From: Halobacteriovorax sp.
Lineage (GTDB): Bacteria > Bdellovibrionota > Bacteriovoracia > Bacteriovoracales > Bacteriovoracaceae
Length of the DNA: 39,645 nt
NCBI GenBank assembly: GCA_002716825.1
Contig: PBCC01000042.1
Span: 1-39,645 of the forward strand
Direction: 5' to 3'
Numbering within the stretch: the stretch's first letter is position 1; each line of letters begins with the position of its first letter. The translations under genes were made by a program, and so were the position numbers. Below are positions 9,107 through 24,192 of this stretch, piece after piece. The notes under the pieces were generated by a model. That model saw only the letters and a program-made list of their open reading frames with translations. It had not been told where the DNA came from and searched no databases.

Positions 9107-9265
9107 TTTAACTCCCGAGTGTTTCGCTAGGGCAATACCCTCAAAGCGTGTCCCAGTAACACATTCAGTAGTGTTTAAAGCCTATCAGACTCAAGAAAAT
9201 TACTACTAAATGAACTCTAAGTACGCTCAAGTATACAAAAAAAAATGCATTTTATGCGCGAATTA

Positions 9266-9295
9266 TTTAAAGACTAATCGCAAATACCCCGATTC
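9266..9295 (+). promoter_or_regulatory. possible heat-shock-type promoter for lon
   Basis: The 241-base divergent spacer between glmU and lon holds TTTAAAG (9266-9272) and, 14 bases on, CCCCGATTC (9287-9295). This loosely matches the sigma-32 pattern (CTTGAAA, 13-15 bases, CCCCATnT). Lon is commonly a heat-shock gene, which makes the match relevant, but it is imperfect. No convincing sigma-70 promoter was found for either gene in the spacer. Confidence 0.3.
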
Positions 9296-9347
9296 ATATC
9301 ATGCAAAGCGAAGAACGCGCCAGAGTTTCAAGGTTGGAGGAAACAAT

Positions 9348-11780
9348 ATGGTAACAAACTACGAGGGTGAGAGCATTGAGTTCAAGGATACCCTGCCGCT
9401 GTTGCCCATTCGCGACATCGTAGTCTACCCCTTTATGATACTTCCGTTGTTTGTAGGCCGCGAGGCTTCCATTGCAGCAGTCGAGCATGCGCTTGAGAGT
9501 ACTGATCGTATGATCCTTCTTGCTAGTCAAAAGGATATTACGGCAGAGTGCCCAGAGCCATCTGAGATCTATGAGTTGGGAACGATTGCAATGATCATGC
9601 GTATGCGCAAGCTACCAGACGGTCGTGTGAAAATTTTGGTGCAAGGCTTATCAAAAGCTCGAATCATTTCATTTGATCAAACAGAACCTTTCTATACGAC
9701 TAAGATCGCGAAAGTTTCTGATCAATCATGTCAAGACGAAGCAGTTGCGATTGGTGCTCTTATGCGCACAATTCGCGAACAACTTGAGAGAGTCATCTCT
9801 CTTGGAAAAGTTTTATCGCCTGACATCCTAACAGTGCTTGATGATATTAAGGAGCCTGGTCGCCTAGCCGATCTCGTTGCCTCTAATCTCAACCTGCATG
9901 TTGCAGAGGCACAAGGTATTCTAGAAACACTAGACCCTACTGATCGCCTGAATCGAATTAATGACATTCTTACTCGTGAACTCGAAATTCTCGCCATGCA
10001 GGCCAAGATTAGAACGGCCGCAAAAGATGAAATTTCTAAATCACAAAAAGAATATTTCCTACGCGAACAGATTAAAGCTATTAAGTCTGAACTAGGCGAT
10101 GGTGAAGCACCAAGCGCTGAACCAGAAGATGAGTTTGGTGAGTTCCGTGAAAAAATCGCCCGCGCAGCTATGCCGGAAGAAGTTGAAAAGGAAGCAACGA
10201 AGCAACTACTTCGTTTAGAAAAAATGCATCCTGATTCATCTGAAAGTGCGATTATTCGCAGCTATCTCGAGTGGATGGTCGATCTACCTTGGTCTGTCGC
10301 GAGTGAAGATAAAATTGATATCGACGGCGCACTTGAGATTTTAAACGAAGACCATTTTGATCTTCATAAAGTTAAAGAGCGTATCCTTGAATATCTTGCC
10401 GTAAGACAGCTTAAAGGCAAGGACATGAAAGGACCGATCCTATGTCTTTCAGGCCCTCCTGGTGTTGGTAAAACATCACTTGGAAAAAGTATTGCTAAAT
10501 CAATAGGCAGAGAATTTATTCGCATTAGTCTTGGCGGTGTCAAAGATGAAGCTGAAATTCGCGGTCATAGAAGAACTTATGTTGGCTCCATGCCTGGTCG
10601 TTTAGTTCAAGCTCTTAAACAAGCTGGAACAAATAATCCAGTCGTGCTTCTCGATGAGATCGACAAGCTTGGCGGGGACTATAAAGGTGATCCAGCTTCA
10701 GCTCTACTTGAAGTATTAGATCCAGAGCAAAACTGTAATTTCCGCGACCATTACTTGAATGTTCCATTTGATTTATCGAATGTAATGTTCATTGCAACAG
10801 CTAACGTTCTTGAACAAATTCCAGGACCTCTTAGAGATCGTATGGAAGTCATCAATCTTTCTGGTTACACCCAAGAAGAAAAAGTCGCTATTTCTAAGAA
10901 ATACCTCATTCCTAAGCAACTTAAGGAAAACGGTATTTCTACAGATCATATCGAATTCACTGATGAAGCTGTTGAGAGTGTTATTAAACACTTCACGGCC
11001 GAAGCTGGTCTTAGAAATCTTGAGCGTCGTATTGGTGCACTTTGCAGAAAGGTTGCCATGAAGATTGCTAAAGGTGAGCAAAGTAAAACTCACTTACTGC
11101 ATGATACAGTCATTAAGTTTTTAGGCCCACCTATTTACACTAAAGATGACGAAAAACAATACGACGAAGTTGGGGTCGCGACAGGTCTCGCCTGGACATC
11201 AGTTGGTGGACAAGTTTTACCAGTCGAGACAACCAAGATGAAAGGAAAGGGTTTAACCCTTACCGGTCAACTTGGGGAAGTTATGAAAGAGTCTGCTCAA
11301 ACGGCCATCGGCTTCATTCGCTCAAAAGCTGATGAACTTGGTGTCGATGAGGACTTCTTTGATAAGTACGAACTCCACGTTCATCTTCCTGCTGGTGCTA
11401 TTCCTAAAGATGGCCCATCAGCTGGTATTACTTTGGCCACGGCCATAATCTCTTTGCTTTCTGGCTTTCCAGTCAGCAGAAAGGTTGCCATGACGGGTGA
11501 AATCACCTTAACCGGCAAGGTTCTACCAATCGGTGGTCTAAAAGAAAAAGCATTGGCGGCCATGAGAATGAATATCGATACGGTGATCATTCCTTGGAAA
11601 AATAAGAAAGACCTGGCAGATATTCCACCAGAGTTCCTAGCCAAAATTAACTTTATCCCGGTTCAAACCATTGATGAAGTTTTGGAAGTGGCACTTGTTG
11701 GATGGAAAGAGCATATGGCTCGCCATAAGCGTAAGTCAGAGACAAAGAAAAAGATCAGCCAACCACCTGCAGCAGCATAA
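9348..11780 (+). CDS. lon: ATP-dependent protease Lon
   Basis: An 810-residue LonA protease degrading misfolded and regulatory proteins in the cytoplasm. Domains in order are the N-terminal substrate domain (LPLLPIRDIVVYPFMILPL near residue 16), a coiled linker, the AAA+ module with Walker A GPPGVGKTS near residue 368 and GGVKDEAEIRGHRRTY, then the Ser-Lys protease domain with DGPSAG (catalytic Ser691) and GGLKEK (catalytic Lys734). The start is placed at the ATG preceded by TTGGAGGAAACAAT, a strong ribosome site. An in-frame ATG 46 codons upstream would add a basic tail unlike any Lon N-terminus. A small hairpin and a response regulator gene follow. Confidence 0.96.
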   Translation: MVTNYEGESIEFKDTLPLLPIRDIVVYPFMILPLFVGREASIAAVEHALESTDRMILLASQKDITAECPEPSEIYELGTIAMIMRMRKLPDGRVKILVQGLSKARIISFDQTEPFYTTKIAKVSDQSCQDEAVAIGALMRTIREQLERVISLGKVLSPDILTVLDDIKEPGRLADLVASNLNLHVAEAQGILETLDPTDRLNRINDILTRELEILAMQAKIRTAAKDEISKSQKEYFLREQIKAIKSELGDGEAPSAEPEDEFGEFREKIARAAMPEEVEKEATKQLLRLEKMHPDSSESAIIRSYLEWMVDLPWSVASEDKIDIDGALEILNEDHFDLHKVKERILEYLAVRQLKGKDMKGPILCLSGPPGVGKTSLGKSIAKSIGREFIRISLGGVKDEAEIRGHRRTYVGSMPGRLVQALKQAGTNNPVVLLDEIDKLGGDYKGDPASALLEVLDPEQNCNFRDHYLNVPFDLSNVMFIATANVLEQIPGPLRDRMEVINLSGYTQEEKVAISKKYLIPKQLKENGISTDHIEFTDEAVESVIKHFTAEAGLRNLERRIGALCRKVAMKIAKGEQSKTHLLHDTVIKFLGPPIYTKDDEKQYDEVGVATGLAWTSVGGQVLPVETTKMKGKGLTLTGQLGEVMKESAQTAIGFIRSKADELGVDEDFFDKYELHVHLPAGAIPKDGPSAGITLATAIISLLSGFPVSRKVAMTGEITLTGKVLPIGGLKEKALAAMRMNIDTVIIPWKNKKDLADIPPEFLAKINFIPVQTIDEVLEVALVGWKEHMARHKRKSETKKKISQPPAAA

Positions 11781-11854: not shown

Positions 11855-12259
11855 TTGTCCGAACAACACGCTCAAGAATTCAAAATAGTCATTGTCGATG
11901 ATGCCGATTTCTCAAAGAGAACAACCGCTAAGATATTAGAGGACGCAGGCTACAATGTGGCGGCTACGGCTTCATCATCTGAAGAAGGTTTAAGAGCTTT
12001 TGGCTCAATTGCCAGCATCTCACTATTCATCATTGATATTGTTATGCCTGGTTCAAGTGGATTGCAGCTGGCTCAGCGCCTCAGTGAACTTAAATTTAAG
12101 GGGGCTATCATTATGATGTCCTCTCTTTCTATGGAATCTGTCATGATTGAAGCCCTCTCAGTAGGCGCTGTCGATTATTTAAAAAAACCTTTTTCTCCAA
12201 AAGACCTCTTAAAGGCGGTTCAAAAAGTTGAAGAAGAATTGGGCAAGGATAGAATATGA
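11855..12259 (+). CDS. single-domain response regulator (CheY-like)
   Basis: A 134-residue stand-alone receiver domain without an output domain. It carries the acidic pair Asp15-Asp16 (IVDDADFS), phospho-acceptor Asp61 in IIDIVMPGSSG, the switch Ser near residue 90 (MMSSLS) and the invariant Lys111 in LKKPF. Such proteins work by protein-protein contact, for example at the flagellar motor or in a phosphorelay. The start is TTG at 11855 with GCGGAGG four bases upstream; no in-frame ATG lies nearby before the first strand. Its stop overlaps the next gene by ATGA. No histidine kinase is present in the window, so the partner is unknown. Confidence 0.9.
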   Translation: MSEQHAQEFKIVIVDDADFSKRTTAKILEDAGYNVAATASSSEEGLRAFGSIASISLFIIDIVMPGSSGLQLAQRLSELKFKGAIIMMSSLSMESVMIEALSVGAVDYLKKPFSPKDLLKAVQKVEEELGKDRI

Positions 12260-12579
12260 TTAGTTTTGTGCTGAAGCCGCTTTTTTGGTTCACTCTAAGT
12301 TTTCTTGTTTTAAGTGTTCCGATCGAAGATAAGCCTTTATTCGATCATATATCCTCTGTCTTTGGGCCTACCGCTCGTGGAGTCATCAATGACTTTAACA
12401 ATAGGGCTGAAGAGACGGTCAAAGTTGGTAAAAAAGCTCTTAATCAACTTTTCCAAAGCATTCCCAAGAGTGCTGACAAGGTTGAAGTCAGGCAGTCTGG
12501 TACCGCTAGAGAGAAAGCGCCTGATGATGAGTACACAATCGAAGAGCGACAATTACTCGAACAAATTCTTAGCCAATAA
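12256..12579 (+). CDS. small exported or membrane-anchored protein, unknown function
   Basis: A 107-residue protein not recognised as a known family. The first 20 or so residues (FVLKPLFWFTLSFLVLSV) form a hydrophobic signal or anchor. The rest is hydrophilic and helical, ending in an acidic segment (DDEYTIEERQLLEQILSQ). Its ATG overlaps the response regulator stop, implying coupled translation and perhaps a shared pathway. A strong terminator starts at its stop codon. The tail could be a short interaction helix, but nothing more can be said. Confidence 0.65.
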   Translation: MISFVLKPLFWFTLSFLVLSVPIEDKPLFDHISSVFGPTARGVINDFNNRAEETVKVGKKALNQLFQSIPKSADKVEVRQSGTAREKAPDDEYTIEERQLLEQILSQ

Positions 12580-12609
12580 AAAAAGCCCGGATATACCGGG
12601 CTTTTTTTA
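12577..12609. terminator. bidirectional intrinsic terminator
   Basis: GCCCGG (12585-12590) and CCGGGC (12596-12601) enclose ATATA, with an A-run before and a T-run after. It can stop the lon/response-regulator transcript on the plus strand and the micropeptide A transcript on the minus strand. Confidence 0.9.
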
Positions 12610-12626
12610 GAACATTTAACTTTTGA

Positions 12627-12806
12627 TTAACGTTCTGAAGATTCGCTTACTTCTACTTCTGCAGATGAAGTTGAAGCTACAGTTGCTGATGTTGCACGAT
12701 TTGACTGAACCATTGATGAACAATCCGCAGATCCTTCTCCAAGTTCAGCTGCAAAAGAAACGTTAACAGCAAAAGTTAGGGCGATAATTGTAAATAGTGC
12801 TTTCAT
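12627..12806 (-). CDS. exported Ser/Glu-rich single-Cys micropeptide A
   Basis: A 59-residue protein of no family I recognise. Residues 1-19 (MKALFTIIALTFAVNVSFA) form a signal peptide with a signal-peptidase-I site after SFA. The mature part of about 40 residues starts AELGEGSADC, has one Cys, is rich in Ser, Thr and Glu, and ends SESSER. It shares ELGE, the DC-x6-[NS]-R spacing and the SER ending with the peptide at 14463-14654, and the DC-x6-[NS]-R signature with that at 14845-15009. The ATG at 12806 is preceded by AGGAG at seven bases; an in-frame ATG six codons upstream would put charges before the signal. A sigma-54-type promoter lies 38 bases upstream and the shared terminator lies 17 bases downstream, so it is a single-gene unit. 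Confidence 0.75.
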   Translation of the reverse strand: MKALFTIIALTFAVNVSFAAELGEGSADCSSMVQSNRATSATVASTSSAEVEVSESSER

Positions 12807-12843
12807 AGTCTTTCTCCTCTTCATGGTTGTTGCCTATATAGAA

Positions 12844-12860
12844 TGCAGCAACCGTGCCAA
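12844..12860 (-). promoter_or_regulatory. sigma-54 (-24/-12) promoter of micropeptide A
   Basis: On the minus strand TTGGCACGGTTGCTGCA matches the RpoN consensus TGGCACG-N4-TTGCA at all but one position. The -24 GG and -12 GC are at the exact required spacing. Transcription would begin near 12834, about 28 bases before the start codon. The same pattern occurs ahead of micropeptide B. Sigma-54 promoters need an activator ATPase, which is not encoded in this window. Confidence 0.7.
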
Positions 12861-12868
12861 GATTTTTA

Positions 12869-12882
12869 ACCTATAAATAGGT
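12869..12882. repeat. perfect palindrome upstream of the sigma-54 promoter
   Basis: ACCTAT-AA-ATAGGT is a perfect 6+2+6 inverted repeat ending eight bases before the -24 element of micropeptide A. It could be an operator or a close activator site. There is no copy ahead of the other two micropeptides, so it may be specific to this gene or chance. Confidence 0.35.
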
Positions 12883-12944
12883 ACTTAGAGAGTAGAATTT
12901 GAATATTTTTCCGACACTGACTATTTTATCTACAAAAAAGTCAC

Positions 12945-14348
12945 TCAGCTCAGCCATTTCATCATCCAAGCTAACGGAGCTAACTTACCGGAATATGGTG
13001 GATAGCGTAGCTTAAGATCGAAAATGAAGAATCTTCGAAGCACTGACTTCTGATGGCTGAAGATTTTGAACGATGTATGGCCGTGATAAGCGCCCATGCC
13101 CGATTCGCCGACCCCACCAAAAGGCAGATCAGGGTTAGACAGATGCATAAGACAATCATTGAGGCAGATCCCACCGGCCTGAACCTCTTTGGCAAAGCGA
13201 TCGAGCATATTTTGGTCATCACTAAAGAGATAGGCCGCAAGTGGATGATCTCGACGGGCTATGACTTTAAGTGCGTTATCGAAACTATCTGTCTCGATGA
13301 TGGGCAAAATGGGGCCAAAGATCTCCTCTTGCATCACAGGGTGATCAAAATCGGCACTTATAACAGTAGGCTCTATAAAGCATTTTGCTTCATCAGAGTT
13401 GCCACCGAAGATAATATCTTTTTTGCTATAGAGTCCCTTCAGGCGATTAAAATGTCTGAGATTAATAATTTTGCCATAATCGGGAGATGAGGCGGCATCG
13501 CCGTAAAACTCTTTAACGACTTTATTGAGCTCATTGAGAAGTTTATCTTTCAGCCCACGCTCAACTAAAACATAGTCCGGGGCAACGCAAGTCTGACCGG
13601 CATTAAACCACTTTCCCCAGGCTATTCGCCTCGCTGCAACTTCAAGGTTTGTAAGGCCGGCTACCACACAAGGACTTTTACCACCTAACTCTAGAGTTAC
13701 TGGTGTTAGATTCTTAGCAGCTTTCTCCATGACGATGCGCCCGACGTGACCATTGCCGGTGTAAAAAATATGATCAAAATGTTGATCCAAAAGTTTCGTT
13801 GTCTGTTCAACTCCACCATTTACAACATTCACGAGCCTTGGATCGAAGGTTTCCCGCACAATGCGAGTTATCACGGCGGCCGTAGCTGGTGCCAGCTCGG
13901 ATGGCTTTAAGATGACCTGATTGCCCGCCGCTAAGGCGCCGACGAGGGGAGATAACAGCAACTGGAAAGGATAATTCCAAGGAGAGATGATTAAGACTTT
14001 TCCCAGTGGATTAGACACGATAAAGCTTCTAGCTGGCAGTAATATCCACGGCGATGAAACTCGCTTTGGTTTCATCCACTTTTTGAGGCTCTTTAATGTG
14101 TGGGAGATTTCATTTTGAACGAAGCCAATTTCTGCAATTTGTGCCTCAAGCTTATTCTTTCCAAGATCTTCAAATAACGCCCCGGCAATGGCCTCTGAAT
14201 GAGTTGAGATGGCCTTTGAGAGCTTTTTAAGTGCATCAACCCGTTGATCGTAGGAGCTGATTAAGCTCGCCGCTGAGCTTGAGTTTTGCAGCGTCACAAT
14301 CTCACTTACTAGTGCCAAGTTAGTTTCAATTGAAATCGAATCAGTCAT
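12945..14348 (-). CDS. class-3-like aldehyde dehydrogenase
   Basis: A 467-residue NAD(P)-dependent aldehyde dehydrogenase oxidising aldehydes to acids. The general-base Glu is at residue 220 (VTLELGGKSPCVV) and the catalytic Cys at 254 (NAGQTCVAPDYV); the cofactor-binding ISPWNYPF and FYTGNGHVGR are also present. The short length, lack of an N-terminal extension and the ending FGGVGESGMGAYHG place it with fatty or coniferyl aldehyde dehydrogenases (ALDH3 type). The substrate is not predictable. Start is the ATG at 14348 with GGAGG four bases upstream, not the in-frame ATG 11 codons earlier. It sits between two micropeptide genes but is bounded by their terminators and has its own promoter. 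Confidence 0.9.
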   Translation of the reverse strand: MTDSISIETNLALVSEIVTLQNSSSAASLISSYDQRVDALKKLSKAISTHSEAIAGALFEDLGKNKLEAQIAEIGFVQNEISHTLKSLKKWMKPKRVSSPWILLPARSFIVSNPLGKVLIISPWNYPFQLLLSPLVGALAAGNQVILKPSELAPATAAVITRIVRETFDPRLVNVVNGGVEQTTKLLDQHFDHIFYTGNGHVGRIVMEKAAKNLTPVTLELGGKSPCVVAGLTNLEVAARRIAWGKWFNAGQTCVAPDYVLVERGLKDKLLNELNKVVKEFYGDAASSPDYGKIINLRHFNRLKGLYSKKDIIFGGNSDEAKCFIEPTVISADFDHPVMQEEIFGPILPIIETDSFDNALKVIARRDHPLAAYLFSDDQNMLDRFAKEVQAGGICLNDCLMHLSNPDLPFGGVGESGMGAYHGHTSFKIFSHQKSVLRRFFIFDLKLRYPPYSGKLAPLAWMMKWLS

Positions 14349-14368
14349 AAAGCCTCCAAAGCACCTTA

Positions 14369-14397
14369 AGTATCCCCTCAAGAGCTCACAGCTTCAA
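14369..14397 (-). promoter_or_regulatory. sigma-70 promoter candidate for the aldehyde dehydrogenase
   Basis: On the minus strand TTGAAG (14397-14392) and GATACT (14374-14369) are 17 bases apart, between the terminator of micropeptide B and the dehydrogenase start. It would free this gene from the micropeptide transcript. Confidence 0.5.
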
Positions 14398-14403
14398 GTA
14401 AAA

Positions 14404-14431
14404 CAAAAAAGCCCACCATTCGGTGGGCCTT
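14404..14431 (-). terminator. intrinsic terminator of micropeptide B
   Basis: GCCCACC (14411-14417) and GGTGGGC (14422-14428) enclose ATTC. On the minus strand the stem is followed by a run of Ts, 32 bases past the stop of micropeptide B. Confidence 0.9.
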
Positions 14432-14462
14432 AACCATGAATTGAATTAATTAAGTCGGACTA

Positions 14463-14654
14463 TTATCTTTCAGAGCTTGAAGAAGAAGAAGATTGCTCAA
14501 CTTCAGAAGACTGACCATCAGATAGAGTTTGTTGAAAACGACTAGACTGTTGTGTGCTTACACAATCAGAGGCCATATTCTCACCAAGCTCGCCAGCGAA
14601 AGATACACCTGTTACTAGTAGTGACAAAAATAGTACTGAGATAAACTTTTTCAT
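14463..14654 (-). CDS. exported Ser/Glu-rich single-Cys micropeptide B
   Basis: A 63-residue protein. A signal peptide (MKKFISVLFLSLLVTGVSFA) is followed by a mature chain starting GELGENMASDC, with one Cys, then Gln/Ser-rich sequence ending in seven Ser residues and a final ER. It is a clear paralogue of micropeptide A: VSFA|(A/G)ELGE at the cleavage site, DC followed eight residues after Cys by Arg, and the SSER end are shared. GGGGGAA six bases upstream supports the ATG at 14654. It has its own sigma-54-type promoter and a strong terminator, so it should be made alone and possibly in quantity. No lipobox is present, so it should be released to the periplasm or beyond. Confidence 0.78.
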   Translation of the reverse strand: MKKFISVLFLSLLVTGVSFAGELGENMASDCVSTQQSSRFQQTLSDGQSSEVEQSSSSSSSER

Positions 14655-14706
14655 ATATTCCCCCTAAAACATTAAATAGGTTTGTTAAGTTGTTTCTAGT
14701 ATTGAA

Positions 14707-14723
14707 TGCATGAGATGTGCCAA
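14707..14723 (-). promoter_or_regulatory. sigma-54 (-24/-12) promoter of micropeptide B
   Basis: On the minus strand TTGGCACATCTCATGCA keeps TGGCAC, five bases, then aTGCA, with GG and GC at the exact -24/-12 spacing. Bases just downstream (TTCAATA, then AACAAC) also match the micropeptide A region, suggesting the two promoters share an origin. Predicted start of transcription is near 14697. Confidence 0.65.
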
Positions 14724-14785
14724 AGAACTCAATTAACAAATCAATCAGTTAGGGGGAGGAAATTGTTTAAAGTTTGGACGGCCGC

Positions 14786-14815
14786 TAAAAAAAAAGCCCT
14801 TCCGAAGAAGGGCTT
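14786..14815 (-). terminator. intrinsic terminator of micropeptide C
   Basis: AAGCCCTTC (14794-14802) and GAAGGGCTT (14807-14815) form a perfect nine-pair stem around CGAA. On the minus strand it is followed by a long T-run, 30 bases after the stop of micropeptide C. Confidence 0.9.
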
Positions 14816-14844
14816 AGAGATAAATCTTTTTGTGGAGCTAAGAA

Positions 14845-15009
14845 TTAACGGCCTGAACCATTCCCTTCTTCACTCTCTTCTGACTCAATCACGACCGTTG
14901 ACGCGTTACCACGGCTTCCATCGTTGATTGCCTCACAATCTTCAGCAGAAACAGGCGTAGAAACTGTAAATACGACCATTAGTAATGCAAGTAAGCTTAA
15001 AAATTTCAT
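14845..15009 (-). CDS. exported acidic single-Cys micropeptide C
   Basis: A 54-residue protein. Its signal peptide (MKFLSLLALLMVVFTVSTPVSA) is followed by a mature part of 32 residues: EDC, eight residues on an Arg (EAINDGSR), then an acidic Glu/Ser-rich stretch and the end GNGSGR. ELGE is missing, but the DC-x6-[NS]-R spacing, single Cys, acidic Ser-rich tail and Arg end tie it to micropeptides A and B. AGAAGGA just upstream supports the ATG at 15009. Promoter and terminator are its own. Unlike A and B, its promoter looks like sigma-70, so the three may be made under different conditions. Confidence 0.7.
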   Translation of the reverse strand: MKFLSLLALLMVVFTVSTPVSAEDCEAINDGSRGNASTVVIESEESEEGNGSGR

Positions 15010-15150: not shown

Positions 15151-16776
15151 TTACATATTCAGGTTAACCCCAGCTGGCTTCACAATCGAAAGCAATGACT
15201 GGAACGCTTGAGTAACTTGTAGAGCCATCTTATGACCGGCCTTAGACTCAACCTTCTTAATCTCACCATAGTTGTCATAAGACACGTTGATCTTACCGAC
15301 GTTATCCATTTGGATCTCAACAGGCTTTCCAAGAGCATTGTACTTAAAGCTTAGTGTGCGCTTCTCGTTTGTCTTCTTGTTGTTGTCTAGCATCTTTGTA
15401 ATACGACCTTGACGATCATAGAGAAGAAGAACCGACATCCCGTGATCATTGACCGCTTTTGAGAGGTTACCGTTCTTGTCATACTCAAAGTTCGTCCAAC
15501 CCTTATTAGAGTTCACTTTTGTGATTTTGTTAAATTGCGGATGATACTCAAGCTTAACAAACTCACCATTGTTTGATGCCTTATTCTTTAGAAGACCATT
15601 TTCATGATAATCAAAAGTCGTTACGCGATCACCACGAATAATTTTCGAAGGCAAAGAACAACACTCTGTATAGAACGTTTCAGTCTTAAGACCATTAATC
15701 TCAGTTAGAATTCTATACGTGTAATCAGACCCATCTGGGCGAGACTTAATCTCATACTCATAGCGATTAGCTACTTCTTTACCAGATACACCTTTTTTCT
15801 TAACAATCGTCCAATAGTGATACTCAGGGTTTTTCGGATTAGACCCATAGTCATACTTTGTTACTTCACCATTACGACTTGTGATCTCTTCAACGAATTG
15901 AGTCTTAGCTGTGTACTTAATCTGCATCTTTGAATCATCAGCGTAAGCAATTGATGAAAGATTGTGATTCGTATCATAGCCATAAGTAAACTTGTTGCCG
16001 CCAACGTCAGTACTTTCAATTAGGTCATCGCCTTTATACTTATAAAATGTTTTCTTATCTCCTGCTGACCAAACGTGCTTAACTTTGCCGTCTGCATACC
16101 AGTCAAAGAATAGTTGCTTCGCCTGAGAGTCCTTAATAGACTTAAGAGTCTTACCTTCGTAGACGAAGTCTACAGAATAGCCATACTTATTCTTAATCTT
16201 TAAAAGCTTTCCGTCTGAATTAAAAACTTCTTCTTTTCCGTCGTTAAAGACTCTTTTGTAACCATCTTTCAGAACGTGAAGCTCTTGAATACCGCGAGTA
16301 TTTGAAAAGAGTTTTGAACCTGAAGCCAACTCGGCCTTGACATCAAACTTACGGCCATAAGCCTGGCGAAGCTCAGCATCGCTCTTAAGCTTTTCAATTA
16401 AAGACTCAGCTACTTGGGCGGTGATGGTTGTTTTCTTTCTCATCGCCTCTACAATTCTTTTTGCAGCAGCTGCAGGATCAACATTTTCTTTTGGTGTAAA
16501 TCGCGTGGTAGCACCTGAACCATTTTCATGAACCACAACTGATCCATCAGCGCCAACACTCAAATATGTCTCAAAGTCTGAGCCCCAACCAAAACCAAAC
16601 CAACCCTTCTCTGTTGATTTCGAGTTATAGGTTCTTGCGATCTCTAAATCCTGACCACCGCCTGGAACGATAATATCAGTATAGGAGATATAGAAATTTC
16701 CGTTCTTAAGGTTCACACCAGACCAAGCTAGTGCAGGTAGAAGTAGTAGAACCAAAAACGCTTTAAACAGTTTCAT
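15151..16776 (-). CDS. exported YD-repeat (Rhs-like) protein without toxin domain
   Basis: A 541-residue protein with signal peptide MKLFKAFLVLLLLPALAWS, then an Rhs N-terminal module (NLKNGNFYISYTDI, LEIARTYNSKS, GWFGFGWGSDFETYL) and many YD-type repeats (for example GDDLIESTDVGGNKFTYGYD, YDKNGNLSKAV, YDRQGRITKML, YNALGKPVEI). YD repeats build a beta-shell cocoon. In Rhs and Tc toxins it holds a C-terminal toxin, but here the chain ends at GVNLNM with no PxxxxDPxG junction or toxin domain. The ATG at 16776 is chosen because it begins the signal peptide and has AGAGGG nine bases upstream. The gene lies 94 bases after the Tad platform gene on the same strand and may be the last gene of the pilus operon. 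A role as an adhesin or surface shell is inference. Confidence 0.85.
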   Translation of the reverse strand: MKLFKAFLVLLLLPALAWSGVNLKNGNFYISYTDIIVPGGGQDLEIARTYNSKSTEKGWFGFGWGSDFETYLSVGADGSVVVHENGSGATTRFTPKENVDPAAAAKRIVEAMRKKTTITAQVAESLIEKLKSDAELRQAYGRKFDVKAELASGSKLFSNTRGIQELHVLKDGYKRVFNDGKEEVFNSDGKLLKIKNKYGYSVDFVYEGKTLKSIKDSQAKQLFFDWYADGKVKHVWSAGDKKTFYKYKGDDLIESTDVGGNKFTYGYDTNHNLSSIAYADDSKMQIKYTAKTQFVEEITSRNGEVTKYDYGSNPKNPEYHYWTIVKKKGVSGKEVANRYEYEIKSRPDGSDYTYRILTEINGLKTETFYTECCSLPSKIIRGDRVTTFDYHENGLLKNKASNNGEFVKLEYHPQFNKITKVNSNKGWTNFEYDKNGNLSKAVNDHGMSVLLLYDRQGRITKMLDNNKKTNEKRTLSFKYNALGKPVEIQMDNVGKINVSYDNYGEIKKVESKAGHKMALQVTQAFQSLLSIVKPAGVNLNM

Positions 16777-16870
16777 CGAAACACCCTCTTTATTCATCTT
16801 TCAGGAAAAGGTTTCTCTCTCATAGCCATATCGTCACAAACGACCCATGGCCTTAGCTAAATTAAATCGA

Positions 16871-17761
16871 TTATATCTTAATTTTAACAATCTTCAGAAT
16901 GACAAAGCCCCCGGCAAGATCGAACAAAAGGGCCAAAAACAGCGCTACCCAGCCCAAAGGGTGCGTAAACATTGGCTTCATCATTTCAGGATCACTGAGT
17001 GTAAAGATCAGGCATATGGCCCAAGGCATGGCAAATATTGTTGCTCCTTGGAACATACCTTGAGCAATGTAAGTGTCTATTTTTTGTTTGAGGCGAACTC
17101 GTTCACGAATAACATCGACAATAGTGTCAAAAACTTCGGCAAGATTACCACCGGTTTCGCGCAAAATATTGACACTTGCAACGAACATTTCGTTATCTTC
17201 TGTAGGAATACGCTTCACTAGCCCTTCAAAACACTCTTCTAGTGGTACACCAATTTTATTTTGCTGGAGAATCATATTGAATTCTTGGCTAACAGGTGTG
17301 GGCATCTCATCGACCACCAGTCCGATGGACTGGGGAAGGGACAAACCGGCCCGAATACCGTTAGCCAGCAATTGCATTGCATCGACCATCTGGCCTTCGT
17401 ACTGCTTGATGCGTTTTTCAATCATGAAATCAATAAATGGCTTAGGAAGTTTGAAACCGAGAAAGATGACCACTGCACCAAGAATGAGCCCTGGTATCCA
17501 TGCACCTAAAAATCCCAACAAGGAAATAATGAATAAGCCTGGAACAAATGAGCAGCAAAGAAGTAGATAAGTAATTTTTTGTGGTTCAACCTCAATGAAG
17601 AGAAGTTCTAATTTCTCTAAAATATAAGTTCTTGTTCCAATCGTTTGCTTTTCAATCCAATCAAAAATATTAACGCTGTACTTGAAAGCTACCAGGAAAA
17701 TAAGTAATCCCGAAACAATCATGATGCCATTAGGACCAAGCAATCTAACAAAAATATCCAT
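16871..17761 (-). CDS. Tad pilus inner-membrane platform protein (TadB/TadC type)
   Basis: A 296-residue protein with a type II secretion F domain. It has an N-terminal membrane segment, two central segments (about residues 55-105), the cytoplasmic F domain (GQMVDAMQLLANGIRAGLSLPQSI and ILRETGGNLAEVFDTIVDVIRERVRLKQKI), and C-terminal membrane helices. It anchors the pilus ATPase and extracts pilins from the membrane. Most Tad systems have two such proteins, TadB and TadC; only one is in this cluster, so the other may be elsewhere or replaced by a homodimer. Its ATG has AGGAG ten bases upstream and follows the ATPase gene by 13 bases. Confidence 0.88.
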   Translation of the reverse strand: MDIFVRLLGPNGIMIVSGLLIFLVAFKYSVNIFDWIEKQTIGTRTYILEKLELLFIEVEPQKITYLLLCCSFVPGLFIISLLGFLGAWIPGLILGAVVIFLGFKLPKPFIDFMIEKRIKQYEGQMVDAMQLLANGIRAGLSLPQSIGLVVDEMPTPVSQEFNMILQQNKIGVPLEECFEGLVKRIPTEDNEMFVASVNILRETGGNLAEVFDTIVDVIRERVRLKQKIDTYIAQGMFQGATIFAMPWAICLIFTLSDPEMMKPMFTHPLGWVALFLALLFDLAGGFVILKIVKIKI

Positions 17762-17774
17762 TACTTGTTATCTC

Positions 17775-19958
17775 CTACTTAGCGCCTACAGGTTTTTTTG
17801 TAGAACTAGCTTGGGGCTTAGCTGGAGCCGGTGCTGCTTTAGGTGCTGGCGGAGCTGCATTACTAAATAGACCTCTTGGAACATTATACCCTTTACGCTC
17901 GAGTACCTCGATGAACTTTGGTATAAACCCAGAAGCCTGAAACTCACCAACAATTTTACCGTTTTTATCAATGTCTTTTTGAACGAACGTGAAGATATCT
18001 TGCAAGGTAACAACATCGCCTTGCATTCCACCGATTTCAGTTATGTAGGTTACACGCCTAGATCCGTCATCAAGTCGTGATTGTTGAATAATCATATGAA
18101 CGGCGTTGGCAATCATTTCCCTAATGGCACGAGGGCTTAAACCTGCACCGGCATACTGAACTAAGGTTTCAATACGTCCAATACATTCTCTTGGATTATT
18201 TGAGTGAACCGTTGTTAGCGAGCCATCGTGTCCTGTCCCCATGGCCTGAAGCATATCTAGTGTTTCACCACCACGACACTCCCCAACGACAATTCTATCA
18301 GGTCTCATACGAAGCGTTTGCTTTACAAGGCAGCGAATATCGATGGCACCATCACCTTCGAGCGAAGGTGGCCTCGTCTCTAGCCTGACAACGTGGTCTT
18401 GTGGAAAATCCAGTTCCGCAGCATCTTCACAAGTGATAATTCTTTCATTGGCCTGAATGAAGCCGCCTAAGATATTAATCAAAGTTGTTTTACCTGAGCC
18501 GGTACCACCCGATACGATGATATTTTTATGAGCCTCTACAGCGATTCTCAAAAAATCGGCCATATTTTGTGTGACAGAACCAAAGGTCACAAGGTCTTTA
18601 TAGGTGAGTCTATTTTCTGGAAATTTACGAATGGTGATCGTACAGCCATCAATTGAGCACGGCGGAATAATAGCGTGCACTCTTGAGCCATCGCCTAGTC
18701 TAGCATCAACATAAGGAGTCTTTTCGTCAATTCTTCTTCCTATAGGAGCAACAATACGTTCGATAACATTGAGAACTTGTCGATCGTTAGTGAAAGTAAT
18801 TTCCGACTTACGAATCTTGCCACCTTTTTCATAGAAGATTTTAGACGGACCAACCACCATAATTTCAGAGACTGATGTATCTGCCAAGAGATCCTCTAGA
18901 GGACCAAGACCAAGGGCTTCATCAAGAATTTCTTTAACAATCTGATTCATATCTTCACGATTATTAAGAATTCCCTTGGTATCCTCTTTGCCAAGAATGT
19001 CGACTACAGCTTTTTTAGTTTGCTCTCTTAAAATGATCTTTGCTTTAGGATCATTATCATCACTTTTCTTGAGATCCATCTCTTCAACTAGGGCTTTATG
19101 GATTCTCGATTTAAGCATGACCCAAGGCTTAGCATCACTTTCTTTACCACCACTTGAAGCGCCAGAGCCCGTTGGCTTGGCAACAGGAGCAGGTCGATTC
19201 AATGAAGCAAGCGTCTTTAGAACACTTTTTTGAACAACTTTTCTAACAACGTCGACAACACCTTTAGTGAAAGGGCTGCTTTTAGCTACAAGGACGGCAG
19301 GCATCTTACGATTGAGCGCCATAACACAGGTTTGTTCATCTTTAGGAATGGGTGCAAAAACAGGTTTACCCATGGTCTTAGACACAACCTCAGGGGTAAC
19401 AGGATGACCTTTAACATACTGATTAAGAATAATTTGCAACATATCCTTGGGATACATCATAGTGACGAGGTCATTAAATAAACGTTTTGTCTGATTGAGA
19501 GCTAGAATATCTGGAGTGACAACCAGGAAAACCATTGTTGTGTACTCTAAGGCTTTTTGTGCCAATGGAGTCACTTCACTGCCTAGATCAATAATGGTTA
19601 ACGGAAAAATATTTGTAATAGACTTTAGCGTTTTCCCCAAGCCCTCGATATTGATATTCTCAGAGGCGCTAGGGTCGTTAGGCATACCAATATAACTCAC
19701 GCCACTTGGATGTGCCGTAACAAAGGTTGCAATACTTCTTGGATCAATAGCGCCGTTAAATTCGGATAAGTCCTTAACAGTCTTTTTACCGCTAATGCCT
19801 GTAATTAAATTTAGATCTCCACTAGCACGTTGATCAAAATCAAGGAGACAGACCTTTGACTTTGTTTCACTGGTCCATGCAAACGCAAGATTAGCTGCGA
19901 CTTGGCTTTTGCCTTGTCCGCCCTTTCCACCCATAATTGCAATAATATGACCTGACAC
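17775..19958 (-). CDS. fused TadZ (CpaE)-TadA (CpaF) pilus ATPase
   Basis: A 727-residue protein joining two Tad components usually encoded separately. Residues 1-250 are a MinD/ParA-like domain with the deviant Walker A GGKGGQGKSQ (10-19) and LLDFDQRASGDLN, as in TadZ/CpaE, which places the pilus machine in the cell. Residues about 251-280 are a Pro/Gly/Ser linker. Residues 281-690 are a full secretion ATPase with Walker A GGTGSGKTT (484-492), the Asp box CEDAAELDF, Walker B RIVVGECRGGE and the His box GHDGSLTTVHSN. An Ala/Pro-rich tail ends the chain. No stop or frameshift signs are seen at the junction. Start is GTG at 19958, two bases after the secretin stop, with AGGAG upstream. A fused form would bind localisation and motor in one chain at a 1:1 ratio. 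Confidence 0.92.
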   Translation of the reverse strand: MSGHIIAIMGGKGGQGKSQVAANLAFAWTSETKSKVCLLDFDQRASGDLNLITGISGKKTVKDLSEFNGAIDPRSIATFVTAHPSGVSYIGMPNDPSASENINIEGLGKTLKSITNIFPLTIIDLGSEVTPLAQKALEYTTMVFLVVTPDILALNQTKRLFNDLVTMMYPKDMLQIILNQYVKGHPVTPEVVSKTMGKPVFAPIPKDEQTCVMALNRKMPAVLVAKSSPFTKGVVDVVRKVVQKSVLKTLASLNRPAPVAKPTGSGASSGGKESDAKPWVMLKSRIHKALVEEMDLKKSDDNDPKAKIILREQTKKAVVDILGKEDTKGILNNREDMNQIVKEILDEALGLGPLEDLLADTSVSEIMVVGPSKIFYEKGGKIRKSEITFTNDRQVLNVIERIVAPIGRRIDEKTPYVDARLGDGSRVHAIIPPCSIDGCTITIRKFPENRLTYKDLVTFGSVTQNMADFLRIAVEAHKNIIVSGGTGSGKTTLINILGGFIQANERIITCEDAAELDFPQDHVVRLETRPPSLEGDGAIDIRCLVKQTLRMRPDRIVVGECRGGETLDMLQAMGTGHDGSLTTVHSNNPRECIGRIETLVQYAGAGLSPRAIREMIANAVHMIIQQSRLDDGSRRVTYITEIGGMQGDVVTLQDIFTFVQKDIDKNGKIVGEFQASGFIPKFIEVLERKGYNVPRGLFSNAAPPAPKAAPAPAKPQASSTKKPVGAK

Positions 19959-19960
19959 TG

Positions 19961-21460
19961 TTAGCGACTCCTGCGACGAAACTTGCGCTGAATTTCTTCT
20001 GAACCGTCAGTAATATTGTCCAAAATCTCTGGTGTAATAAACATAGCGAATTGGCTTTTATTGGTTGAGTAATCTTTTGAACGATTAAAGGAAAACAGAG
20101 GAATGCCACCACCTTGAACTTCAGTGGTCGATGGCTTGTCATACTCAGTACTCGAGTTGTTGACGACGATACCACCAATAACCGCACTCTCTTTGGACTT
20201 AACAACGACTCTGGTTGAAAGTTGATTGGTTTGCTTTGAGCTGGTGTTACCTGCAACTGTACTACTCACTCCGAGACTAATTCCAAGATGAACTTTTTCT
20301 TCAGGAAAAGTTTCGGCTTTAATCTTGAGCTGAAAGCCAACAGTATTTTCCTGAGGCCGTGCAAATTCGCCTGAACCAACGCTAAAGGTTTCGGTGTTTG
20401 TTTTATTGAGTTCTGAATCTGCCGTATCTTTGTCCTTCACAATAATGACACCTGATTGGACGACACGTGCATAACCTGCACTTTTAGCACTCTGCAGTTT
20501 AGGAAATAAATTTGAAATAGTTGCCTGAAGTGTTCCTTGTGAGCCGGTAGAAACACCACCGCCTGAGACTTTGCCAATATTAATTTCGCCACCAGTACCA
20601 GTTCTTAAGGGCTGCCACTCAAAGCCAAATATCTTCTTATAGTTTTTAGTCAGCTCGACAAACTGAGCGGTAATTTTAATCATTTTTGGAACTTCTGGTG
20701 GCTGAGACTTAGGATTAATTTGAATCAAAGTTTCAATAATCCCTTTGAAGTTATTTTGCTGAACCGAGTCCGTTCTTCTTGCCAAGCTCTCAATGCGATC
20801 AGGTAGATAAATCTTGGCGATTTGAAGTGCTCGCTTAGCTTCATCTTCAGAGGCAACGATACCCTCTAAAATAAACGAGCCATTGACTACCCTTACATTC
20901 ACATCACGCATGCCGCTTTTTTGAATTTCTTCTTGCATTTTCCGAGCGATAATCAACTGTGTTTGTGGCGATAACTCGACCAGCATCAAGACTTCTCTAA
21001 ACTTATCTGTTTCTAGAATCGTAACAACTCGCCCGATATCACCAGGGACAACGATCTGTCCGCCGATAAAAACTTGGTCATTAATGAGTCCAATCTCTAA
21101 TCCTTCAACATCTCCGACAAACTCACGAAGCTCTTGAAGTATCTTTGATTTTCCTGTTTCAGTTACATTAACTAGGTAACGTTTTTTAATATCGCCGGTT
21201 GCCTGATCTCGGACGATGATGTCCGTTTTGCCTGCTTTTAAGCCGATCAACACAAGTTCGCGTTTCGCAGGAACAAGTGTGTATCTTAAAATTTGATCGG
21301 AGCTCACCTGGATATTTCCGGGAATAAAATCCATCTGCAAAATCTTACTGATGCCAATCACAACTTCTACTTCTTCTTCATTGCCTTTATCACTAGCCTG
21401 CCCAAACGCAATCTGCGAAATAAAAAGGAAAGAGAGTAGAGTTAAGAGAAACTTGTTCAT
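19961..21460 (-). CDS. cpaC: Tad/Flp pilus secretin (CpaC/RcpA)
   Basis: A 499-residue outer-membrane channel for the Flp pilus. A signal peptide (MNKFLLTLLSFLFISQIAFG) precedes the pilus-specific N domain, a central BON-like fold (QEEIQKSGMRDVNVRVVNGS, with SEDEAKRALQIA) and the C-terminal secretin domain (KIKAETFPEEKVHLGISLGVS, ending GGIPLFSFNRSKDYSTNKSQ). The last segment matches the conserved V-P-xLG-x-LF secretin motif with changes. Its ATG overlaps the cpaB stop (ATGA). No lipobox is present, so a pilotin would be supplied from elsewhere, if one is needed. Confidence 0.9.
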   Translation of the reverse strand: MNKFLLTLLSFLFISQIAFGQASDKGNEEEVEVVIGISKILQMDFIPGNIQVSSDQILRYTLVPAKRELVLIGLKAGKTDIIVRDQATGDIKKRYLVNVTETGKSKILQELREFVGDVEGLEIGLINDQVFIGGQIVVPGDIGRVVTILETDKFREVLMLVELSPQTQLIIARKMQEEIQKSGMRDVNVRVVNGSFILEGIVASEDEAKRALQIAKIYLPDRIESLARRTDSVQQNNFKGIIETLIQINPKSQPPEVPKMIKITAQFVELTKNYKKIFGFEWQPLRTGTGGEINIGKVSGGGVSTGSQGTLQATISNLFPKLQSAKSAGYARVVQSGVIIVKDKDTADSELNKTNTETFSVGSGEFARPQENTVGFQLKIKAETFPEEKVHLGISLGVSSTVAGNTSSKQTNQLSTRVVVKSKESAVIGGIVVNNSSTEYDKPSTTEVQGGGIPLFSFNRSKDYSTNKSQFAMFITPEILDNITDGSEEIQRKFRRRSR

Positions 21461-22269
21461 TGACCTGCCTGTTTGTTTTGATCAGAGAAATAAGTTCTCG
21501 CCTCAGCAGCATCTTCACCGAGGATGTCAAAAAGTCTTGTCGGTTTAATATTGATAATTTCGTTATCATTATTATTTCGAAGTGAGATTGTTGGTCTACG
21601 ACCGCTATAGCTCAAGACGTGAGTGAGTTTTTGAACTTGGTAGGGATCGAGCTCCAATGTAATAGTATTGTACTGACTATATGTTGAGAGCTTCATTGCC
21701 TTGATCTCTCTTGGCGTTTTAATACCAATAATCGGAATATTATTAGTAATGCTCATACCAGTTGAGAGAACATAGACGTTTTGCAAAATAGTCATAATTT
21801 TTTGAAGATCTTTTCGACCTGCTGAGAAATCAATCGCGGCGACAATATCAACGCGATCACCTGGCTTAATCAAGCGACTCACGGCCGACTCATCGGTGAT
21901 CGTCATGGCAAAGGCACGCTTACCAGCACTCACCTGACGAGAAAGACCTGTTCCAGTCCCCGGATAAGTCACTCTAGGCTTTGAAATTTGTTCGCCTTTT
22001 AAGATCGGAACTGTGGCAACTGTATTTTCTAGCTCATCAATTTTTCGAAAGGCACCTGGCTGAACGAAGCTTGAAGGTACACTTTGAATAGTTACCTTAG
22101 AGTCATCAATTAATTCTAGTTCTTGGATATCGACCTTTGCGACAACAACAGAAGTATTTGTTCCATAGCGTTGATTGATCACTGACTTTTCATCTTCAAT
22201 ATAGGTGTAGACCATAAACATTGAAAATAAAGAAATGATTAGAGCTAGTGTAAATGCGCGAGTGTTCAT
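21457..22269 (-). CDS. cpaB: Flp pilus assembly protein CpaB/RcpC
   Basis: A 270-residue periplasmic assembly protein with one N-terminal membrane segment (residues 6-24), an SAF domain (SVVVAKVDIQELELIDDSKV, then ILKGEQISKPR) and the CpaB/RcpC domain (SAGKRAFAMTITDESAVSRL, IKPGDRVDIVA). It links the pilus to the secretin and cell wall in other Tad systems. AAGG eight bases before the ATG is a modest ribosome site. A 97-base spacer separates it from the upstream TadE-like gene, the only real gap within the operon, and an intercistronic stem-loop fills it. Confidence 0.9.
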   Translation of the reverse strand: MNTRAFTLALIISLFSMFMVYTYIEDEKSVINQRYGTNTSVVVAKVDIQELELIDDSKVTIQSVPSSFVQPGAFRKIDELENTVATVPILKGEQISKPRVTYPGTGTGLSRQVSAGKRAFAMTITDESAVSRLIKPGDRVDIVAAIDFSAGRKDLQKIMTILQNVYVLSTGMSITNNIPIIGIKTPREIKAMKLSTYSQYNTITLELDPYQVQKLTHVLSYSGRRPTISLRNNNDNEIINIKPTRLFDILGEDAAEARTYFSDQNKQAGQ

Positions 22270-22282
22270 GCAACTGCCTTAA

Positions 22283-22371
22283 AATAAGTCTTCTACTTAC
22301 TCTAAATTTTAGCAAAAATAGTAACTTATAAGACTGACCGGCAAGAACATCCAGACAGAAGTAGACTTATT
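22283..22371 (-). repeat. intercistronic inverted repeat ahead of cpaB
   Basis: AATAAGTCTTCTACTT near 22283-22298 and AAGTAGACTTATT at 22359-22371 are complementary apart from one or two extra bases, closing a loop of about 60 bases. The distal arm overlaps the stop of the TadE-like gene. It may mark an mRNA processing or stability boundary between the pilin-like and the machinery parts of the operon. Confidence 0.4.
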
Positions 22372-22879
22372 CGGTTCGTGCGCATTGACGACTAACAGAC
22401 TCTGGCCAGTTTAGGACATAGGGATTGGCCGATGCCGCCTCAGCCTTAGACCAGGTTCCAGTGCAGACACCAAAAGAGCTATAAATTCGTATAAATTGAG
22501 TCTTTCGATCAACTGGATTTGCCTCACGACATTCCTCTTCAATTTCATTGCCAAGAAAACCATAGACTTTCACGCAGGCACCTACCGGACTACCTCCCGA
22601 TTCCGCAATTGTATCTAGACTCCAACTAAAAGCATCAAGTGATACATGATTAACTCCGTTATTCTTAAAGTCTTCTAGAAATTTAGCGTTTGGAACCATC
22701 GTATCGTGAGAGACTGAATAGAAATAATATCCTCTGACTACTTTGAGCTGATTAATACCTAAGTTAATCGCATCTCCATAATCAAAAAGTGATTTTATTA
22801 AGAATAAAAAAATTGGCAAAAAGATGATTAGCTCAAAGATTGCTTGTCCCTTTTCATTTTTATTTTTTTTAACAGCCAT
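22367..22879 (-). CDS. TadE-like prepilin (third minor pilin-like protein)
   Basis: A 170-residue protein with a short basic leader, a prepilin-like junction KGQAIFEL near residue 10 and a following hydrophobic helix (IIFLPIFLFLIKSLF). The globular part holds three Cys residues (GACVKV, IEEECRE, FGVCTG) and ends SRQCARTE, so disulfides are likely. The ATG at 22879 is chosen because it starts just before the leader and has GGTGG upstream; the longer in-frame reading lies inside the preceding gene. It overlaps that gene by 11 bases. TadE/TadF-type minor pilins initiate or tune pilus growth. Confidence 0.8.
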   Translation of the reverse strand: MAVKKNKNEKGQAIFELIIFLPIFLFLIKSLFDYGDAINLGINQLKVVRGYYFYSVSHDTMVPNAKFLEDFKNNGVNHVSLDAFSWSLDTIAESGGSPVGACVKVYGFLGNEIEEECREANPVDRKTQFIRIYSSFGVCTGTWSKAEAASANPYVLNWPESVSRQCARTE

Positions 22880-23390
22880 TGTCCACCAATGTGAAAGCTT
22901 TGCCACAGGAACCGGAATCATCGGCAAGTGCGGCCTTACAAGTTCGAGCAGAACATTCCTTACGATCAGGCTCACGGCCAATAAATGATTCCGACTTCAT
23001 ATGCAAAGTTTCAGAGCCTCCAAAGAGTCCGACGCTTGAAAAAGTCGTTTCCCAATCAAAGGTCACCCCTCGCAAAATTCCTTTGCCTTGAGGATCATTT
23101 TTTATAAGTAGTGTGGATGAATCAATATTAAGCTGCTTATTGTAGAGACCTACTTTCGTATTACTAAACTCCGGTTCAACCACACTGGTAAAACTGCTTC
23201 CAGCGCCACCGGAGTCTTCAAAAGTTAAATAGGCCCTGCTCGCCATATAAGTCGAGTAGTGAACGAGGTATCCCGTAGTATAATTCAGTGCAACTTTTAA
23301 TGTGTAGATAATTAAGAAGAATGCAAATCCAAAGCTGAATATAAACTCAATCGTTGATTGACCTGACTCATTTCTCAAGTGTTTTTTCAT
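22869..23390 (-). CDS. TadE-like pseudopilin
   Basis: A 173-residue minor pilin-like protein. A short basic leader ends with the prepilin-peptidase junction ESGQSTIEF near residue 10, where the conserved Glu sits five residues after Gly. A hydrophobic helix of about 20 residues follows (FSFGFAFFLIIYTLKVALNY), then a TadE-type segment (YMASRAYLTF). The globular C-terminus has four Cys residues in the last 35 positions (KECSARTCKAALADDSGSC, NGC). Its ATG overlaps the upstream gene by four bases. Confidence 0.85.
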   Translation of the reverse strand: MKKHLRNESGQSTIEFIFSFGFAFFLIIYTLKVALNYTTGYLVHYSTYMASRAYLTFEDSGGAGSSFTSVVEPEFSNTKVGLYNKQLNIDSSTLLIKNDPQGKGILRGVTFDWETTFSSVGLFGGSETLHMKSESFIGREPDRKECSARTCKAALADDSGSCGKAFTLVDNGC

Positions 23391-23698
23391 GGGTTAGTTC
23401 CCCCAAGATATGTATCTGTGGCACCGATAAATCGTGATCGACCACCTTTGGAATACGAGTCGTGTTGTTCAGGTGTAGTGATGTCTTTTAGGCCAACATC
23501 AGGTTCTACTCCTAAGTGTGTAAAACGATAGGAGAACTCCATGCGATGCTTTAATACTTTAAAAAATGAAGAGTCTTCACCTAGAAGATCAGCAAATAAT
23601 GGGCTACGAAGCACTATTGCCACAAGAAGCATCACGACAGCAAGTAGGAGCACGTACTCAATCGTTGATTGGCCCTTTTGCTGAAGATACTTTTTCAT
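23387..23698 (-). CDS. prepilin-like protein of the Tad operon
   Basis: A 103-residue protein starting MKKYLQQKGQSTIEYVLLLA, the same leader plus G|Q-x3-E junction as the Flp pilin, followed by a hydrophobic helix. The soluble part (about residues 30-103) is hydrophilic with no Cys and ends YLGGTNP. The ATG at 23698 overlaps the prepilin peptidase stop (ATGA); a longer in-frame start would read into the peptidase gene. It is larger than a Flp major pilin, so a minor pilin is more likely. Confidence 0.82.
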   Translation of the reverse strand: MKKYLQQKGQSTIEYVLLLAVVMLLVAIVLRSPLFADLLGEDSSFFKVLKHRMEFSYRFTHLGVEPDVGLKDITTPEQHDSYSKGGRSRFIGATDTYLGGTNP

Positions 23699-24192
23699 CG
23701 TAAACCTGCTTCTATTAAAAACCAAAGCCACGCAGCTAAAATTACCGGCGCATAAGTAAATTTACCACCTAGAAAGTTCTTAAGACTTCCAGCTCTGGCA
23801 AAAACAACGACTTTAAAACGCTCCCATTGTGATACGACTCGATAACTGAGAAGTACTCCCCCAACCATAATAGTTAGGGCGCATAGCTTAATCAGAAGTA
23901 GCTCATGCAAAGGTTCAGGGATGAGGAGAAAAAGAGAAAATAAATACTTTGAGTCCCCTGCTCCCATAATGTCTAACTTAAAGAGGGCAAAGCCGACAGC
24001 AAGGATCGCAATGGGAACAAACCACGTTCTAAACTCGTAGCCGTAGAGATCTTCAAAAATAAAAGGAAGAAAGAGATAGAGTGTAAAGTTGGTAACTGGC
24101 CAAATATTCGAGATTTTTTTGGTCTTAAAATCAAACCATGCGACGACAGAAACTTGAAAGGTGATAAAACTTGCAATTAAAGTTTCCATCAT
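23695..24192 (-). CDS. tadV: prepilin peptidase TadV/CpaA
   Basis: A 165-residue integral membrane aspartyl protease that removes the leaders of Flp-type prepilins. The catalytic pair is visible: Asp21 in AWFDFKTKKISN and Asp80 in the G-x-G-D signature (MGAGDSKYL). About five or six membrane segments are predicted. It lacks the N-methylation domain of type IV prepilin peptidases, as usual for TadV. The start at 24192 gives an ATGA overlap with the preceding small prepilin gene. It is the likely processing enzyme for all five pilin-like proteins encoded around it. Confidence 0.9.
   Translation of the reverse strand: MMETLIASFITFQVSVVAWFDFKTKKISNIWPVTNFTLYLFLPFIFEDLYGYEFRTWFVPIAILAVGFALFKLDIMGAGDSKYLFSLFLLIPEPLHELLLIKLCALTIMVGGVLLSYRVVSQWERFKVVVFARAGSLKNFLGGKFTYAPVILAAWLWFLIEAGLR

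Follow-up and report, generated by a model that had tools for sequence, protein, structure and literature searches.

A conserved trio of predicted exported micropeptides at a Halobacteriovorax counterpart of the Bdellovibrio hit locus

We analysed a stretch of 39,645 nucleotides from Halobacteriovorax sp., a member of a predatory bacterial family (assembly GCA_002716825.1, contig PBCC01000042.1, positions 1 to 39,645; hereafter the window), in which three small genes, called A, B and C, follow a gene for a secreted YD/RHS protein and a Tad/Flp pilus operon. The case is strong that this trio represents the exported micropeptides of the hit (host-interaction) locus of Bacteriovoracaceae, and that it belongs to the same module as the neighbouring RHS and pilus genes. 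It has long been asked how Bdellovibrio and related bacteria change over between obligate predation and free growth, and attention has centred on the hit locus, whose peptide Bd0108 has been described as unique to Bdellovibrio and which has been credited with a regulatory RNA; the Bacteriovoracaceae trio has been largely unstudied so far.

Three small genes behind a YD/RHS gene

The three genes and their terminators are as follows.

12627-12806, (-): peptide A (P1), 59-aa precursor, predicted mature peptide AELGEGSADCSSMVQSNRATSATVASTSSAEVEVSESSER, resting on open reading frame, ribosome-binding site, terminator and orthologue
14463-14654, (-): peptide B (P2), 63-aa precursor with a single Cys and the family-invariant G-E-x(n)-C-x(n)-R core
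14845-15009, (-): peptide C (P3), 54-aa precursor, next gene after YD/RHS, where Bd0108 sits in Bdellovibrio
14794-14815, (-): intrinsic terminator of C, from the terminator scan
14408-14431, (-): intrinsic terminator of B, from the terminator scan
12580-12606, no single strand: bidirectional terminator of A and a convergent 107-aa gene, read by eye and absent from the scan list

The predicted mature chains comprise 40 aa in A, 43 aa in B and 32 aa in C, with one Cys apiece, and DC-x6-[NS]R occurs in all three, as the first-pass annotation of this DNA had noted. Its description of exported, single-Cys, Ser/Glu-rich micropeptides agrees with the predicted signal peptides and the Cys count, and it was right that annotation easily overlooks products of this kind. 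It had also given each gene a ribosome site, a promoter and a terminator of its own. A Shine-Dalgarno site and an intrinsic terminator do accompany A, B and C alike (the start of A is the ATG at 12806, with AGGAG upstream), but a promoter per gene is not supported, since a consensus scan returned 4 sigma-70-like sites against 6.6 expected. Scans of the peptides against Pfam and NCBIfam gave no match above the curated cut-off, and Rfam and tRNA scans of the window were likewise without a match. By charge-hydropathy calculation, B, C and, marginally, A fall on the disordered side together with 168 of 189 peptides of the family, and an AlphaFold model bearing on the same question has low confidence (predicted local distance difference test, pLDDT, 59).

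Around the trio lie the following genes.

15151-16797, (-): 548-aa secreted protein of YD/RHS type, corresponding to Bd0109 (Pfam RHS_repeat and DUF6531)
16871-24192, (-): Tad/Flp (type IVb) pilus operon, from profile matches of its component genes
12945-14381, (-): aldehyde dehydrogenase (ALDH) between A and B (Pfam Aldedh)
12256-12579, (+): convergent 107-aa protein with an N-terminal hydrophobic segment, positional counterpart of an 86-aa gene (probably Bd0103) of Bdellovibrio bacteriovorus HD100
11855-12259, (+): stand-alone response-regulator receiver protein (Pfam Response_reg), a conserved module boundary
9210-11780, (+): Lon protease, conserved on the downstream side, with 94% identity to that of the sister species

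The order is thus Tad/Flp operon, YD/RHS gene, peptides, and then the convergent 107-aa protein (which has no Pfam family), response regulator and Lon. The pilus operon includes TadB/C-like T2SSF proteins, a CpaE-TadA fusion ATPase, a secretin, CpaB/RcpC, pseudopilin-like genes and a prepilin-peptidase-like protein; at 17775-19958 the CpaE-like (ParA/MinD) domain and the TadA ATPase form one 727-aa fusion that is conserved in the family. For the 548-aa YD/RHS protein, the best PDB matches are RHS core structures, and its structure model reaches pLDDT 79 and a predicted template modelling score (pTM) of 0.54. A vicinal Cys-Cys pair at codons 379-380 of this protein (window 15658-15663) is present in 56 of 94 sequences and replaced or deleted in 38.

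Conservation of the trio and matching of its tails

A profile hidden Markov model of A, B and C, searched against 129 genomes of the order, found relatives in 38, with syntenic neighbours. Using the RHS protein as bait, itself present in 342 of 369 genomes of the phylum, we obtained 80 named loci, whose family-level names are mostly Bacteriovoracaceae or Halobacteriovoraceae. Same-strand open reading frames with a signal peptide were counted in the 72 loci with a downstream boundary, the window among them: exactly three are present in 57, two in 11, four in 3 and one in 1, and on the opposite strand 51 of the 72 have none. When the intergenic stretch was recounted in 63 family loci, the three-peptide layout was found in 50 of them and in none of 1260 dinucleotide shuffles, 91.8% of which have zero such frames. 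ALDH occurs in just 19 of the 72 bounded loci and is therefore probably a passenger, unlikely to be part of the module. Outside the family, all 31 sampled loci have at least one such peptide and 22 have at least two, the second carrying exactly one Cys in 20 of 22. Relatives occur across Bdellovibrionota, and the data indicate that hit-locus peptides are phylum-wide, usually in sets of two or three. In genome G119, an extra P1/P2-type copy lies ~17 kb off the locus (G119:C7:168904-169389 and 186168-186323).

The trio had first been taken as a single family of three, which is not supported. A and B match each other by BLASTP (E 3e-8) and, as P1 and P2 profiles in hhalign with the last six residues trimmed, at E 7e-10, whereas P3 against P1/P2 with tails trimmed gives no match (E 0.49-0.62), so that C as a sequence homologue of A/B is rejected at present sensitivity. 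These comparisons make A and B homologues; what ties C to them is position, tail, and the predicted signal peptide and disorder. The mature core G-E-x(n)-C-x(n)-R is invariant across 14 aligned A/B members, and exactly one Cys is found in 63/63 P1 and 61/63 P2 sequences (124/126 together); in P3 the count runs from 1 to 7, often with CxxC (21/63). C-x6-[NS]R with exactly this spacing is confined to particular lineages: 15 of 63 B-type peptides have it, as do 12 of 63 A-type and 2 of 63 C-type ones. Relaxed to an Arg 5-8 residues after the Cys, it is present in 53/63 B-type and 52/63 A-type peptides, and for A and B the homologues with conserved Cys-Arg spacing foreseen in the first-pass annotation do exist.

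The three open reading frames are real, conserved and under purifying selection. Against the orthologue in a sister species of the same genus (G113/L079), A has non-synonymous and synonymous rates of dN 0.136 and dS 0.665 (dN/dS ~0.20), and B has dN 0.228 and dS 1.534 (dN/dS ~0.15). Most peptide pairs compared fall at dN/dS 0.04-0.24; the close pair L083/L154 has higher values in P2 and P1, with few changes. P1 and P2 are nearly identical in some genomes (L109 12096-12756; L083/L154), so recent duplication or conversion between them does occur.

The C-terminal tails of the three peptides differ from genome to genome (for example L092, L107, L112 and L086, among loci L079-L158) and agree within a genome: SSSIDG, SSSIDG and SSTIDG in L092, GSKVRGQ, GSKVRSQ and GSRVVRQ in L112, and SNTSK on all three in L107. 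Across 23 genomes with RHS-protein identity <80%, identity over the last four residues within a genome was 1.74 for P3-P2, 1.52 for P3-P1 and 2.09 for P2-P1, against ~0.45-0.5 when genomes were permuted (p=0.0002, the minimum possible). For pairs with P3 the signal is gone at offsets of >=4 residues inward, and a lineage-wide composition is thereby rejected as its cause for these pairs. Control comparisons with the tails of four neighbouring proteins were null in 9 of 12 cases; P3 and P2 with the response regulator and P2 with T2SSF reached 0.02 < p < 0.04, uncorrected and with small effects. Where tail residues are identical, their codons agree in 51-58% of cases against 41-42% expected, and the 15 nt past the stop are at baseline. 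Gene conversion is thus an unlikely source of the common tails, and independent selection is favoured. The same effect is weaker in 20 hand-picked loci outside the family, where relatedness is uncontrolled (0.95 vs 0.46, p=0.0016). Overall, the matching within genomes suggests that one reader recognises the tails as a C-terminal tag; such a reader would be a partner still missing from the pathway.

Correspondence with the Bdellovibrio hit locus

In one genome, the gene right after that of a 550-aa RHS protein encodes 101 aa, with D24 and Q101, and the two products match the published Bd0108 and Bd0109 of HD100 (PMC3818213). Bd0109 is recovered with a profile of the window YD/RHS protein, and Bd0108 is followed by a 66-aa open reading frame with a signal peptide and one Cys, and then by the convergent 86-aa gene and a response regulator. 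The HD100 and window layouts agree, which places C at the Bd0108 position, although the CxxC of Bd0108 is not found in C, which has a single Cys. As in the hit locus, the window has Tad/Flp genes upstream of a YD/RHS gene of Bd0109 type, and this gene lies directly upstream of one for a small signal-peptide protein. The first-pass annotation had not recognised the family and had pictured stand-alone peptides made in bulk; by gene order they are instead counterparts of the hit locus, within a conserved pilus/RHS module.

The HD100 66-aa frame (96483-96683, equal to L229:8484-8684 (-)) lies between bd0103 and bd0108, entirely within the "103-108 sRNA" (small RNA; 96455-96716) that Capeness et al. 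described as non-coding and found upregulated in bd0108 mutants (PMC3818213). It has a 33-nt 5' leader with AAGGAG and a strong hairpin just beyond the reported 3' end of the RNA, and both published reverse transcription PCR primers (96555-96574 and 96633-96652) fall inside it. Compared with the related genome G138, HD100 shows 15 synonymous and 3 non-synonymous changes in this frame (dN/dS ~0.04), and orthologues of the peptide are detectable in just 6 of 24 genomes of the genus, but the position is kept. These data indicate a conserved secreted peptide encoded in the region, and the simplest reading of the RNA is that it is an mRNA, though it may be a dual-function RNA. Its coding content was not found in the literature searched, which left subscription papers mostly outside.

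Parts of this picture have precedents. In 2014, two small proteins with signal peptides were noted beside the Bd0109 homologue of Halobacteriovorax marinus (PMC4267844), and passages of a 2023 paper report short secretory two- or three-gene arrays in Bdellovibrionales bins (PMC10469934). What appears to be new is that the trio extends through the family, that A and B are homologous and conserve their Cys, that the tails are shared and that the sRNA contains a coding frame. Locus L239 (G173), possibly B. exovorus JSS, has a Tad-linked Bd0109 homologue and then two signal-peptide open reading frames of 124 and 67 aa; another locus has been favoured as the hit equivalent of B. exovorus (PMC4267844).

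Proposed role and comparison with known systems

Bd0108 is a disordered protein that binds Bd0109 weakly (dissociation constant 45 µM, ~3:1) through residues 24-66, while nuclear magnetic resonance shows residues 89-101 unaffected by Bd0109; its loss leads to fewer pili and favours prey-independent growth (PMC3818213, PMC4267844). By analogy, A, B and C would be exported by Sec and then stay in the periplasm, disordered, as ligands for the RHS protein. They would dock on it through the N-terminal stretch that holds the Cys and leave the C-terminal tail free, and a single partner would read this tail, which tends to be alike across the trio of a genome; RHS occupancy may then report or set the state of pilus extension, and with it the choice between predation and growth. 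That the trio works with the RHS protein in this way, tying pilus state to a predation/growth switch, is the reading we favour and consider reasonably probable. It is supported by gene order, the shuffle control, purifying selection, tail matching and the biology of Bd0108. A signalling or regulatory role is preferred by analogy with Bd0108, and nothing found indicates fibre coating or inhibition, which the first-pass annotation had suggested beside signals. The 3:1 stoichiometry beside three peptides per locus is a coincidence that is suggestive only.

Several points weigh against this reading. C and Bd0108 have no sequence homology in hhalign (P3 against the Bdellovibrio set, E 0.08-0.2), and a homologous relationship is rejected at present sensitivity; A/B match the HD100 66-aa peptide at just E 0.003-0.025, so that equivalence rests on position and features. 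The window trio is predicted from its genes and its binding to the RHS protein is putative, the organism, with an assembly that is 74% complete, may or may not be a predator, and the reader of the tail is a putative partner. At pTM 0.54, moreover, the RHS model does not establish cage size or closure.

Other explanations account for part of the evidence. The peptides might be released signals (pheromones), with the genome-specific tail as a recognised code giving specificity between populations; divergence of tails across genomes with agreement within them would fit, as would the quorum-like character of prey-independent growth cited by Prehna et al. (PMC4267844). We think this fairly unlikely, because nothing at the locus was found to be a processing protease, an exporter or a cognate receptor, because the idea does not account for the conserved Cys and N-terminal core, and because the RHS neighbour favours a periplasmic role. 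Alternatively, the peptides might not be regulators but minor building blocks, caps or chaperones of the Tad pilus; the Tad operon is adjacent throughout, and they look disordered and are Ser/Glu-rich. Such a role is unlikely, however, since no pilin-like hydrophobic helix is left after signal cleavage and deletion of Bd0108 alters PilA (type IVa) extrusion, not Tad functions alone (PMC3818213).

The cysteines raise the further idea of redox partners, in which C-type peptides, often with CxxC, and single-Cys A/B peptides would be linked by mixed disulfides, either to one another or to the RHS protein, which would thereby sense the redox state of the envelope. It draws on the constancy of one Cys in A-type (63/63), B-type (61/63) and second peptides outside the family (20/22), and on the CxxC of Bd0108, but window C has a single Cys and the peptides keep theirs where the RHS pair at 379-380 is lost (38/94), which also weakens that pair as a docking site; we regard it as distinctly unlikely. 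Small size and fast divergence might finally point to chance open reading frames or decayed genes, an explanation with next to no probability that is refuted by the shuffles (0/1260 with three), purifying selection and one Cys in 124/126 A/B sequences. Extending the periplasmic-ligand reading, each Bdellovibrionota hit locus may make a peptide set with N-termini in the RHS shell and a lineage-specific C-terminal tag for one putative partner; the B. bacteriovorus sRNA would be the mRNA of a second peptide, overproduced when Bd0108 is lost, and the switch would be run by the set and not by Bd0108 alone. We offer this extension tentatively, as possible but more doubtful than the role proposed for the trio.

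Among known systems, the hit locus of B. bacteriovorus (bd0108-bd0109 with bd0110-bd0119; PMC3818213, PMC4267844) has the same sequence of Tad operon, YD/RHS gene, small secreted peptide (disordered in Bd0108, predicted to be so in the window), and convergent small gene with response regulator. It has Bd0108 (78 aa) and a 66-aa precursor, whereas the window has three peptides of 32-43 aa when mature, with ALDH inserted, A and B homologous, and C without Bd0108 homology. In H. marinus SJ, from the same bacterial family, BMS_0183 and BMS_0184 encode small proteins with signal peptides beside BMS_0182, which is homologous to Bd0109; two peptides were noted there (PMC4267844), while L251 (G043), possibly this strain, has a third behind ALDH. 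The passages of PMC10469934 describe two or three short signal-peptide genes (57-133 aa) beside Bd0109/Bd0103 homologues in 20 bins; these are Bdellovibrionales, not Bacteriovoracaceae, and those passages contain no analysis of Cys, selection or tails. RHS cages (Rhs effectors of the type VI secretion system, Tc toxin BC and teneurins) share their repeat fold with the 548-aa neighbour, but this protein is much shorter and without a C-terminal toxin domain, its putative ligands being encoded by separate small genes. The "103-108 sRNA", published as non-coding, has at the A/B position an open reading frame for a single-Cys, signal-peptide product that is just weakly similar to A and B.

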